Below, piece by piece: positions 16,865 through 31,593 of a DNA stretch of 33,734 bases. Origin of the DNA: Acidobacteriota bacterium (GTDB taxonomy: Bacteria > Acidobacteriota > Vicinamibacteria > Vicinamibacterales > UBA2999); NCBI GenBank assembly GCA_022842985.1, contig JALHON010000018.1, positions 1-33,734 on the forward strand, in the 5' to 3' direction. Under the pieces are notes generated by a model that was not told where the DNA came from, ran no database searches, and was given only the letters and a program-made list of their open reading frames with translations. The position numbers were made by a program, and so were the translations under genes. Each line of letters opens with the position of its first letter. The stretch's first letter is position 1.

Positions 16865-16892
16865 CCCGGGCCCCGTGCCCCGAGCCCCGCCA
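16865..16892 (+). repeat. C-rich heptanucleotide array before glgP
   Basis: Four in-phase 7-mers, CCCGGGC, CCCGTGC, CCCGAGC and CCCGCCA, end 4 nt before the glgP ATG. All share CCC and most the pattern CCCGNGC. The same unit is found before rimO and inside rimO. It replaces the place where a ribosome binding site would be expected. Confidence 0.5.
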
Positions 16893-16896
16893 CGAT

Positions 16897-19023
16897 ATGG
16901 AACGTTTCGCCATTCCTTTCCCCAGCCGCATCCACCGCATCGGCGAACTCGCCACCGACGTCTGGTGGAGCTGGCAGCCCGGCGCCCGCCAGCTCTTCCG
17001 CCAGCTCGACCTCGCGGCGTGGCGCTCCACCGCCCACAACCCGGCGCGCATGCTGCGCACGATCGGCGCCGAGACGCTGCAGCGCGCGGCGGACGATCCG
17101 GCATTCGTGAAGATGTACGACGCGGCCATCAGCGGCCTCGACGCGGCCCGGCACCCGGAACAGTCGTGGTGGAAGTCCGAGGGGCCGGACCTCGGCGGCA
17201 AGGTCATCGCCTACTTCTCGGCCGAGTTCGCCCTGCACCAGTCGCTGCCGATCTACGCCGGCGGCCTCGGCGTGCTGGCCGGCGACCACTGCAAGGAAGC
17301 CAGCGACCTCGGCGTGCCGCTCGTCGGCATCGGGTTCATGTACCCGCAGGGCTACTTCCATCAGCGCGTCTCGACCGACGGCTGGCAGCAGGAACACTAC
17401 GAGCGCATCAACTGGGCCGATGCGCCGATTGAGACGGCCATCACGCCCGATGGCAAGCCCTGCATCACGGCCGTGCCGCTCGGCGACCGCACGGTGCTCG
17501 CCGCCGTGTGGCGCGTGCGCGTCGGCCACGTGCGCCTCTTCCTGCTCGACACCGACCTCGAAGAGAACGCGCCGTGGGACCGCGAGCTCTCGGCGCGCCT
17601 CTACGGCGGCGACCGCGAGACGCGCATCCAGCAGGAAGTCATCCTCGGCATCGGCGGCGTGCGCGTGCTGCGCGCGATGGGCCTCGAACCCGCCGTCTGG
17701 CATCTGAACGAAGGCCACGCCGCTTTCGTCGTGCTGCAGCGCATCCGCGAACACATCGAACAGGGCCTGTCGTTCGACGACGCCCTCGAGATGGTGCGCA
17801 AGAGCACCGTGTTCACCACGCACACGCCGGTGCCGGCCGGTCACGACGCCTTCCCCTACCATCTGGTCGAGAAGCACCTCGCCGGCTGCTGGGGCGATCT
17901 CGGCCAGCATCGCGCCCGCTTCCTCGCGCTCGGCGAACACGACAGCGGCCACGGCTCGATGTTCAACATGACGGCGCTCGCCATGCGGGCGGCCGGCGGC
18001 ATCAACGCCGTGAGCGAGCTGCACGGCCACGTCACGCGCGAGATGTGGCAGGGCATGTGGCCCGGCCGGCCGGTGGACGCGGTGCCGGTGCAGGCCATCA
18101 CCAACGGCGTGCACGTGCCGACGTGGGTGGCGGCCAACGTCCGCGATCTGCTCACCGACCACCTCGGCGAAGACTGGATCCGCCGCGTGGACGACCCGGC
18201 CACGTGGCAGCGCTTCGACGCGATTCCCGACGCCGAGCTGTGGCGCGTGCGATTGACGCTGCGTGACGCGCTCTTCGCCTGGATCCGCGAGCGCGCCCGC
18301 CAGCGCTGGACGATCGAACGCGTGGCTCCGCCGCGCGTCGTCACGCACGGAGCGATGCTCGACCCCGACGCGCTCACGATCGGCTACGCGCGGCGTTTCG
18401 CGCAGTACAAGCGCCCCGAGCTCATCTTCCACGACGTCGAGCGCCTGGCCCGCATCCTGACCGCGCCCGGCCGCCCCGTGCAGATCGTGTTCGCCGGCAA
18501 GGCGCATCCGGCCGACGACCCGGCCAAGCACCATCTGCAGCGCGTCTTCCGCCGCGCCCTCGATCCGATGTTCGGCGGCCGCGTCGCCTTCATCGACGAC
18601 TATGACCTGCACGTCGCCCACCTGCTCGTGCAGGGCTGCGACGTGTGGCTCAACAACCCCCGCAAGCCGCTCGAGGCGAGCGGCACGAGCGGCATGAAGG
18701 CGGCCCTGAACGGCGTGCCGCACCTGAGCATCGGCGACGGCTGGTGGGCCGAAGGCTACACCGGCGACAACGGCTGGCTCATCGAAGGCGGCGCCAACGC
18801 CAACGACCACGACGCGGCCGACCGGGCCGACGCCGAGGCCCTCTACACCCTGCTCGAACGCGACGTCGTGCCGGCCTTCTACGACCGCGACCAGGCGGGC
18901 GTGCCGGCGGCGTGGATGCGGGTCGTGCGTGAAGCCATGCGCACGAACCTGCCACGCTTCTCCACGGCGCGCATGCTGAAGGAATACGTGCGCCGGCTGT
19001 ACGCGCCGGCGGCGTCGCGGTAG
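16897..19023 (+). CDS. glgP: Alpha-glucan (glycogen/maltodextrin) phosphorylase, GT35
   Basis: Releases glucose 1-phosphate from the non-reducing ends of alpha-1,4-glucans. At 708 residues it belongs to the short bacterial/archaeal subfamily, not the roughly 800-residue MalP/GlgP type. It starts with the subfamily's IGELATDVWWSWQPGARQLF segment. IAYFSAEFALHQSLPIYAGGLGVLAGDH in pieces around residues 106-135 is the conserved N-terminal core. WHLNEGHAAF and HTPVPAGHDAF follow, and the PLP lysine is Lys601 in EASGTSGMKAALNG, with NNPRKPLEASGTS just before it. All expected catalytic features are present. There is no Shine-Dalgarno site: the ATG follows a heptanucleotide array. The neighbours are not glycogen genes, so its supply of glucan must come from elsewhere. 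Confidence 0.92.
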   Translation: MERFAIPFPSRIHRIGELATDVWWSWQPGARQLFRQLDLAAWRSTAHNPARMLRTIGAETLQRAADDPAFVKMYDAAISGLDAARHPEQSWWKSEGPDLGGKVIAYFSAEFALHQSLPIYAGGLGVLAGDHCKEASDLGVPLVGIGFMYPQGYFHQRVSTDGWQQEHYERINWADAPIETAITPDGKPCITAVPLGDRTVLAAVWRVRVGHVRLFLLDTDLEENAPWDRELSARLYGGDRETRIQQEVILGIGGVRVLRAMGLEPAVWHLNEGHAAFVVLQRIREHIEQGLSFDDALEMVRKSTVFTTHTPVPAGHDAFPYHLVEKHLAGCWGDLGQHRARFLALGEHDSGHGSMFNMTALAMRAAGGINAVSELHGHVTREMWQGMWPGRPVDAVPVQAITNGVHVPTWVAANVRDLLTDHLGEDWIRRVDDPATWQRFDAIPDAELWRVRLTLRDALFAWIRERARQRWTIERVAPPRVVTHGAMLDPDALTIGYARRFAQYKRPELIFHDVERLARILTAPGRPVQIVFAGKAHPADDPAKHHLQRVFRRALDPMFGGRVAFIDDYDLHVAHLLVQGCDVWLNNPRKPLEASGTSGMKAALNGVPHLSIGDGWWAEGYTGDNGWLIEGGANANDHDAADRADAEALYTLLERDVVPAFYDRDQAGVPAAWMRVVREAMRTNLPRFSTARMLKEYVRRLYAPAASR

Positions 19024-30025: not shown

Positions 30026-30031
30026 TACAGT
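30026..30031 (+). promoter_or_regulatory. -10 box of the rimO leader transcript
   Basis: TACAGT is followed by 6 nt and an ATG at 30038, the same spacing as at the zinc-ribbon gene. TTCGGG (30002-30007), 18 nt upstream, is a poor -35. It predicts a leaderless mRNA beginning with the leader ORF. Confidence 0.35.
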
Positions 30032-30037
30032 GGTGGG

Positions 30038-30112
30038 ATGTCCCGAGACGCCGCCCGCCGGCATGACGCCGTCCCCGAGCCCCGGGACCCGAGCCCCGAG
30101 CCCCGCCTGTGA
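30038..30112 (+). CDS. Candidate 24-codon leader peptide upstream of rimO
   Basis: Starting at ATG 30038, the frame encodes MSRDAARRHDAVPEPRDPSP and four further residues. Its second half is the heptanucleotide array in translation. Its TGA overlaps the rimO GTG (GTGA), so ribosomes leaving it could restart on rimO, which has no Shine-Dalgarno site of its own. There is no sign of conservation to lean on; it may be only a landing path for ribosomes. Confidence 0.35.
   Translation: MSRDAARRHDAVPEPRDPSPEPRL
30074..30108 (+). repeat. C-rich heptanucleotide array before rimO
   Basis: Five in-phase 7-mers: CCCGAGC, CCCGGGA, CCCGAGC, CCCGAGC and CCCGCCT, ending directly at the rimO GTG. Three of the five are identical. 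Confidence 0.6.
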
Positions 30113-31593
30113 AAATCGGCTTCGTTTCCCTCGGCTGCCCCAAGAACCTCGTCGACTCCGAGGTGATGCTCGGCACGGCTGAGCAGGCCGGCCACGAAAT
30201 CACGACCGACGCCGACGGCGCCGACGTGGTCATCGTGAACACCTGCGCCTTCATCGACCGCGCCAAGCAGGAGTCGATCGACACGATTCTCGAGATGGCG
30301 GCGAAGAAGAAGGCCACCGGCGGACGCCTGGTTGTCACCGGCTGCCTGGCCGAACGCTACCGCGACAGCCTGCAGAAGGAAATCCCTGAGATCGACGCCA
30401 TCCTCGGCACCGGCGACGTCCCGAACATCCTCGAAGCGATCCAGCCCGGCTCCACGGCCGCGAGAGCGACGGGCGCTGCGCCGCTGACGTTCTACAAGAG
30501 GGATCCGAAGCCGGCGAGCGGAGCGATGCCGGCACAGGGGACGCCGAGCGAAGCGACGGCGTCCGCAGCGGGACACGCGCACGCCCCAGCCCCCAGCCCC
30601 GAGCCCCCAGCCCCGGTCTTCGGCGTGGATCTGCCCACATATCTTTACGGTGCCGACACGCCACGCCGCCTTTCGACCCCCGGCCACTACGCCTACGTGA
30701 AGATCGCCGAGGGTTGCGACTACAAGTGCGCGTTCTGCGTGATCCCGAAGATGCGCGGCCACTACCGCAGCCGCAGCATCGAGTCGGTCGTGGCCGAAGC
30801 GCACCAGCTGGCCGCCCGCGGCGTGAAGGAACTGCTGCTCGTCTCGCAGGACACGACCTTCTACGGCATCGACCGCAAGGAACGCGACGCGCTGCCGCGC
30901 CTCATCGAGGCGCTCGACCAGGTGGACGGCATCGAGTGGGTGCGCCTGCTCTACCTCTACCCGACCACCATCACCGACGCCACCATCGACGCCATCGCCG
31001 CCAGCCGCAAGGTGGTCCGCTACATCGACCTGCCGCTGCAGCACGCGTCAGACGCCGTGCTGAAGCGCATGAAGCGCCCCGGCACGCGCGCCTCCTACGA
31101 ACGGCTGCTCGGCAACATCCGCGCGAAGATGCCCGACGTGGCCCTGCGCACCACCTTCATCGTGGGGTTCCCCGGCGAGACCGAGGCCGACGTCGAGGAG
31201 CTGCTGGCCTTCATCACGGCCGTCGGCTTCGACCACGTGGGCGTCTTCACCTACAGCCACGAGGAAGACACCTCGGCCTTCGACCTCGTGGACGACGTGC
31301 CGGCGGCCGAGAAGACCCGCCGCCAGAAGCGGGTCATGGCCCTCCAGAAGCGGCTGGTGGCGAAACGGCAGAAGGCGAAGGTGGGCGCCCGCGTCCGCAT
31401 GGTCGTGGACGGGCCGTCGCCGGAGCACGAATGGGTGTTCACGGGCCGGCTGCCGGGCCAGGCCCCCGAAATCGACCCGCAGGTCTACCTGACCGACGCC
31501 GATCCGGCCACACTTTCGCCCGGCCAGTTCCTGGAGGTCGAAATCGTGGGGGCCGAGGGCTACGATCTGGTCGCCCGGCCTCTGGACCTCTGA
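30109..31593 (+). CDS. rimO: Ribosomal protein S12 methylthiotransferase RimO with a repeat-derived insert
   Basis: A radical-SAM enzyme that methylthiolates an aspartate of ribosomal protein S12. The 494-residue protein has the N-terminal MTTase domain with cluster cysteines Cys10, Cys46 and Cys79 and starts KIGFVSLGCPKNLVDSE, as RimO does. The radical-SAM motif CDYKCAFC gives Cys203, Cys207 and Cys210. A C-terminal TRAM domain lies at about 425-490. E. coli RimO is 441 residues; the excess of about 53 residues falls in the linker between the two cluster domains (about 114-172), a low-complexity stretch rich in Ala, Pro, Gly and Ser. At DNA level this stretch is palindromic modules plus a heptanucleotide array, so it looks like repeat DNA accepted in frame. 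All catalytic residues are intact. The start is GTG, since the RimO consensus begins right there. Confidence 0.93.
   Translation: MKIGFVSLGCPKNLVDSEVMLGTAEQAGHEITTDADGADVVIVNTCAFIDRAKQESIDTILEMAAKKKATGGRLVVTGCLAERYRDSLQKEIPEIDAILGTGDVPNILEAIQPGSTAARATGAAPLTFYKRDPKPASGAMPAQGTPSEATASAAGHAHAPAPSPEPPAPVFGVDLPTYLYGADTPRRLSTPGHYAYVKIAEGCDYKCAFCVIPKMRGHYRSRSIESVVAEAHQLAARGVKELLLVSQDTTFYGIDRKERDALPRLIEALDQVDGIEWVRLLYLYPTTITDATIDAIAASRKVVRYIDLPLQHASDAVLKRMKRPGTRASYERLLGNIRAKMPDVALRTTFIVGFPGETEADVEELLAFITAVGFDHVGVFTYSHEEDTSAFDLVDDVPAAEKTRRQKRVMALQKRLVAKRQKAKVGARVRMVVDGPSPEHEWVFTGRLPGQAPEIDPQVYLTDADPATLSPGQFLEVEIVGAEGYDLVARPLDL
30510..30564. repeat. Two palindromic GA-GC-GRA-GC-GA modules inside rimO
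   Basis: Module A is GCCGGC (30510-30515), then GAGCGGAGCGAT, then GCCGGC (30528-30533). Module B is GACGCCG (30540-30546), then AGCGAAGCGA, then CGGCGTC (30557-30563), extended by one more G-C pair. The outer stems differ, but both keep GA-GC-GRA-GC-GA in the middle, the plan seen beside tRNA-Leu. Confidence 0.55.
30584..30618. repeat. C-rich heptanucleotide array inside rimO
   Basis: Five in-phase 7-mers, CCCCAGC, CCCCAGC, CCCGAGC, CCCCAGC and CCCGGTC. They encode the Pro/Ala-rich end of the RimO linker insert. Confidence 0.6.

Follow-up and report, generated by a model that had tools for sequence, protein, structure and literature searches.

Two genes of an acidobacterial genome, glgP and rimO, are each preceded by a tandem array of C-rich seven-nucleotide units that ends almost at the start codon, and a third array lies inside rimO. 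This raises the question of whether the arrays are devices of the start codons that they adjoin, or members of a family with a wider placement. The window, that is, the whole stretch of 33,734 nucleotides analysed here, is contig C18 of a MAG of 4.97 Mb in 469 contigs, and the features that bear on the question are the following:

16865 to 16889, plus strand: C-rich heptamer array of 3.6 units, ending 7 nt 5' of the glgP ATG
16897 to 19023, plus strand: glgP, alpha-glucan phosphorylase (TIGR02094, 831 bits)
30073 to 30105, plus strand: C-rich heptamer array of 4.7 units, ending 3 nt 5' of the rimO GTG
30109 to 31593, plus strand: rimO, ribosomal protein S12 methylthiotransferase (TIGR01125, 521 bits)
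30584 to 30614, plus strand: in-frame heptamer array of the RimO linker, with CCCCAGC as its main unit

The identity of the upstream asnS is well supported, and the closest relatives of this RimO come from 'Acidobacteria' MAGs (top identity 91%), with one Vicinamibacterales-titled record at 69%. Three further loci, titled Cyanobacteria, Bifidobacterium breve and Acidimicrobiia (L017, L028 and L047), have a rimO that is 60–67% identical to that of the window, which suggests, from sequence similarity, mislabelled or mixed MAGs.

All three arrays of the original prediction are present, with boundaries that differ by 1–4 nt in TRF, and they are the only period-7 arrays of the window at a detector score of at least 10. 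Their frequency is above chance, a check that had been proposed for them: at a score of at least 12 there are three against 0.08 expected, and none of 200 order-3 Markov simulations of the window reached three, while at a score of at least 10 the simulated mean was 0.47 and three were reached in 4 of 200. Computation also confirmed that CCCGAGC reads as a seven-residue cycle in every frame and has no stops on either strand. As a description of the arrays this unit holds for the one 5' of rimO, but not for the one inside rimO, where CCCCAGC predominates. Reversal of CCCGAGC yields a rotation of its own cycle, and the pattern C4N3C4N3C4 is identical when reversed, so that pattern reversal is no valid control for either.

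In the genome as a whole, C4N3C4N3C4 has 154 matches, compared with 8 for the 8-nt analogue and 12 for the 6-nt analogue, patterns which, like those run on relatives with 8-nt units, match poly-C runs too. In 754 kb of unselected stretches we found five intergenic period-7 arrays versus 0.2 simulated (score at least 12), and among the other intergenic periods from 4 to 15 there were four arrays of period 14, one of period 8 and none of the rest. At the same score, five arrays lie in 88 kb of intergenic DNA and five in the remaining 666 kb, an intergenic over-representation that depends on the split made by the first gene caller, which wrongly labelled several arrays as coding. For the analysis of position and polarity, 69 arrays were taken from the unselected stretches and from loci picked by the C4 pattern, the latter drawn from the first 100 of its 154 places; the sample covers about 17% of the genome, is partly pattern-chosen, and has its gene ends from a home-made, self-trained dicodon gene caller. 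Rounded to whole units, 26 of the 69 have four units and another 26 have five. Fifty-five are intergenic, and leaving out the 14 in predicted coding sequence and one without a known edge gave 54 arrays.

In 46 of these 54 arrays (p = 1.4e-7) the C-rich strand points towards the nearer ORF edge, with a median gap of 6 nt ahead versus 71 nt behind. Array-free ORF edges showed no comparable skew, the only signals there being a Shine-Dalgarno (SD) bump at −10 to −6 and, over the 5 nt directly preceding starts, a bias towards C, and background skew was rejected on this ground as the source of the polarity. Arrays were found in 3 of 82 divergent, 31 of 195 co-directional and 6 of 38 convergent regions, in a sample partly chosen for arrays. 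The edge ahead of the array is a stop codon in 28 cases and a start codon in 26, and within 10 nt the counts are 26 for a stop ahead, 9 for a start ahead, 6 for a stop behind and 2 for a start behind. The arrays thus prefer one orientation relative to the ORF edge that they adjoin, and this edge may be a stop as well as a start.

These counts bear directly on the proposal that slippage, by changing the number of units before a start codon, adjusts translation of the gene downstream. There are indeed arrays before start codons, as had been claimed, both in the window (7 nt from glgP, 3 nt from rimO) and among the 26 with a start ahead, but this is only half of the pattern. A start-codon-specific role is unsupported because 28 of the 54 arrays have a stop ahead, stops being also the commoner edge at close range, and start-codon specificity was rejected. 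The lack of an SD site at the starts next to the arrays, which had been brought in as an argument, would be ordinary: in unselected stretches of the genome the SD core is absent from 397 of 611 predicted genes (an SD-like core precedes 214 of 611; two control windows gave counts of 60 and 62), and SD-less starts are the norm.

The rimO start has a context of its own, in which we identified two further elements:

30026 to 30031, plus strand: TACAGT, a candidate −10-like box 5' of the leader ORF, in similar context in 5/5 genus members
30038 to 30112, plus strand: putative 24-codon leader ORF, its TGA overlapping the rimO GTG, its frame kept in 5/5 genus members

The leader ORF starts 6 nt after TACAGT, its ATG being preceded in all five genus members by a context of the tgtacagtg.. 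or agtacagtg.. type, and it is perhaps leaderless; it encloses the array at 30073–30105. From ATG to GTG it measures 71, 65, 71, 71 and 80 nt in the five genomes, and the overlap, kept although the length differs by −6 and +9 nt, is suggestive of coupling between the putative leader ORF and rimO. The rimO array would then lie in a 5' leader, perhaps within a small ORF coupled to rimO, and might affect rimO translation, but such an effect would not be the reason for the array family.

The overlap of the putative leader ORF with the rimO start in all five genus members is what a translational device could use, but the ORF stays in frame despite these same length changes, which speaks against fast slippage as a means of tuning. 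The same is true of glgP, whose upstream region measures 113, 113, 113, 92 and 82 nt in the five genomes: in the three closest (G000, G003 and G004) the intergenic region is 113 nt in each, and no unit-number change of the phase-variation type was seen there. With stops as frequent as starts ahead of the arrays and SD-less starts usual, we regard tuning by unit number as very improbable.

Within the genus the arrays are nevertheless not static. Before glgP, period 7 is clear in three of the five genomes (G000, G003 and G004; 0/500 shuffles), weak in G001 (8/500) and indistinguishable from shuffled sequence in G002 (107/500), and upstream of rimO it is clear in G000, G003 and G001 (0/500) and weak in G004 (26/500) and G002 (37/500). 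The unit itself has been swapped 5' of rimO, which has the CCCTGGT type in G003 and CCCGAGC in the window. Syntenic pieces of the genus have detector arrays at sites matching those of the window, together with two further period-7 segments of non-C4 type (L230 11131–11148 and L232 7585–7604). Inheritance of the arrays within the genus is partial.

The third array of the window has counterparts in another protein and in other lineages. The linker that joins the UPF0004 and radical SAM domains of RimO contains 23 period-7 arrays in 9.9 kb compared with 2 in 50 kb elsewhere in the gene, a count for which 46 of 80 rimO loci were used and 5 of 47 orthologues were dropped, as the boundary motifs were absent. 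Linker arrays are present in 17 of 42 orthologues, with lineage-specific units, and several linkers contain G-then-C pairs. In the linker of the window the array is preceded by another element:

30512 to 30564, plus strand: a pair of similar palindromic segments around CGAGCGNAGCGA, 5' of the array within the RimO linker

The candidate CGAGCGNAGCGA was rejected as a genome-wide partner of the arrays: 1.8 occurrences are expected in 754 kb and five were found, of which rimO holds two. A second protein, a DnaE2-type error-prone polymerase of 1233 aa (L151:2388-6089, contig C106 of G000; NF004225, 1206 bits), has six in-frame heptamer arrays, and its orthologues have other low-complexity, variable peptides in the corresponding loops, some of them heptamer-derived as judged by eye. 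The RimO linker and the DnaE2 loops look like permissive sites that have been filled repeatedly, and in these bacteria the linker peptides of both proteins should be read with the warning that they are often repeat-derived. The original prediction is supported in that in-phase heptamers are dispersed far above chance and are tolerated inside coding DNA. As for the suggested neutral replicator, pure neutrality alone leaves the strand polarity unexplained.

Beyond the genus the habit persists with different words. In 295 kb of sequence around rimO from other genera (44 loci) we counted 22 intergenic period-7 arrays versus 0.1 simulated, which become 14 once a C/G difference of at least 3 and both edges are required, along with five arrays of period 8, five of period 9 and 16 of period 14, the latter largely repeating those of period 7. 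Their units differ, including CCAGTCA, CAGCCAT, CCCTTGC, CAATCCC and others, and in several relatives (L026, L191, L201 and L206, by eye) the gap before rimO is occupied from stop to start by an inverted pair. At five other loci (L020, L022, L037, L193 and L200) heptamers are replaced before rimO by inverted repeat pairs of about 9 nt, similar to CACGAAGG or CACGGAGGA. Across 80 genomes of the phylum, surveyed with patterns that mostly avoid poly-C, C4 heptamers are patchy, with 116 in the genome of the window, 540 in G106, 259 in G118 and at most 10 in 68 of the 80; the period-8 control, of the same kind, gave 2 in the genome of the window, 36 in G106 and 67 in G060. G106 and G118 are distant members of the phylum with units of their own; that of G106, among the matches listed, is mostly CCCCGAA. 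Three genomes of the order (G029, G033 and G052) use 8-nt units as much as or more than 7-nt ones, for example CCCCCGAT in G052.

The polarity in other genera is informative on the idea that the G-rich strand forms a G-quadruplex near gene ends and thereby modulates transcription or replication. Four or more C3 tracts are present in 63 of our 69 arrays, and the Xanthomonas and Nostoc units form quadruplexes in vitro (PMC4692102). In other genera, however, 21 of 24 arrays show the polarity (period-7 and period-8 arrays pooled from rimO, glgP and dnaE2 loci, with duplicates merged), and among those whose detected segment has at most three C3 tracts the figure is 17 of 19, where several with three tracts may borrow a nearby fourth and others have none. 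Quadruplex capacity seems not to set the polarity, because these low-tract arrays are still polar, and we find the quadruplex explanation rather unlikely.

Arrays also tend to occur in pairs: among neighbours at most 300 nt apart, a G arm is followed by a C arm in 13 cases, the order is reversed in two and the arrangement is tandem in one. Paired arms could form a transcript stem that insulates or stabilises neighbouring cistrons, as the 13 to 2 excess would suggest, and two-armed co-directional regions of the genome have a mean folding energy of −0.578 per nt versus −0.405 in array-free ones. On the other hand, in two-armed co-directional regions the sense strand is no better folded than the antisense (three lower and three higher in the genome, two lower and four higher in relatives), and most array-bearing regions contain a single arm, both being found by the detector in 9 of 40 such regions of the genome. 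Selection for a hairpin at the RNA level was rejected, given the lack of a sense/antisense folding signal in two-armed regions, and a role as transcript stem appears improbable.

A different view of the pairs is that whole modules, each with a G arm, a hairpin spacer and a C arm, spread to new sites by copying, also in frame into genes, in the manner of MITE/REP or Rickettsia palindromic elements. The array ends are partly conserved in sequence, and the stop codon ahead of the array is TAG in 20 of 26 cases versus 206 of 617 genes, two observations that suit copied modules better than slippage. In addition, hairpins between the arms are common to L151 and L161, one of them also to L131, six in-frame arrays occur within the single dnaE2 gene, and in a translated search an insert peptide of DnaE2 gave a match to the C170 element. 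Against this, shared hairpins near arrays were found at three loci only (7 of 9 hits), and TAG is frequent behind the array too (5 of 8). The evidence of unit order for array copying is also weak, and was rejected as proof: GGG stands beside GGG three times, versus 6.9 expected from shuffles across arrays (3.4% as low) and 4.2 from shuffles within arrays (26% as low). The TAG enrichment, the partly conserved ends and the shared hairpins are a hint of copied modules, beyond slippage, but as a full account copying of whole modules is, in our view, a possibility on the unlikely side.

The reading that we consider probable, with moderate confidence, is that the arrays form a genome-wide polar heptamer family with turnover at the DNA level at protein-neutral sites, equivalent in acidobacteria to the G-rich heptamers that Xanthomonas and Nostoc carry at gene edges. 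Arrays would arise and be rewritten at the DNA level by 7-nt slippage and by copying between arrays or hairpin arms, and would persist where proteins stay unspoiled, that is, just outside ORFs, in the leader and in interdomain loops. Slippage by itself accounts neither for the polarity nor for the closeness of 6 nt to the edges, and the polarity could come either from selection acting on transcripts that run through the arrays or from the copying process. A bolder idea, which we offer as a long shot, is that a protein- or RNA-templated copying process writes a lineage-specific word of 7–8 nt, always in the same strand direction, both at ORF edges and in loops of conserved proteins across the acidobacterial order, in which case site, period and polarity, and not the sequence, would be inherited, and quadruplex capacity would be incidental. 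Gene-edge heptamers have so far been interpreted as quadruplex elements or start-codon regulators. In the relatives studied here, position and polarity are kept without four C3 tracts, and matching loops carry different words. As position and polarity are kept with other units, the rule is separated from the sequence, and the sources of period 7 and of polarity thus become comparable across genomes.

Tandem heptamers are known from cyanobacteria as STRR sequences, and Rickettsia palindromic elements are an example of repeats tolerated in frame inside conserved proteins, from which our case differs in that heptamer arrays of variable unit are the carrier. A literature search of limited range gave no description of acidobacterial heptamers. 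The string 'Acidobacteri' is absent from the main text of PMC4692102 and of PMC4679880, and a repeat survey across phyla (PMC4060949) has, in the part used here, Acidobacteria as a table column. In the corresponding parts of the other reports, four-heptamer elements of the unit GGGACCG are described between and inside genes of Geobacter metallireducens, as an aligned family of 49 predicted regulatory elements (PMC2700814), and the portion compared contains no description of edge polarity. The TAACTGA repeats of marine Beggiatoaceae, many of them just 5' of start codons and a few inside ORFs (MacGregor 2015, PMC4679880), have one unit, one orientation and mainly starts as neighbours, whereas our arrays adjoin stops as much as starts and vary in unit. 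The closest likeness is to the G-rich heptamers GGGNATC and GGGGA(C/T)T of Xanthomonas and Nostoc, whose function was left open in the text used here (Rehm et al. 2015, PMC4692102), and the comparison with heptamers of other bacteria made in the original prediction fits these gene-edge repeats. Both sets are tandem 7-nt units, mostly intergenic and with inverted pairs, in both the nearer ORF is located 5' of the array, as read on the G-rich strand, regardless of ORF direction (46 of 54 here), and both are rare between divergent ORFs (3 of 82 here). Our arrays differ in having other units in another phylum, in the polarity of relatives without four G tracts, and in the in-frame arrays that recur in given protein loops with different units. 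The Xanthomonas and Nostoc repeats clearly prefer four units; of our 69 arrays, 26 have four and 26 five. The arrays of this lineage look like a known, unexplained gene-edge heptamer habit in a new group, and one that is wider than first noted.
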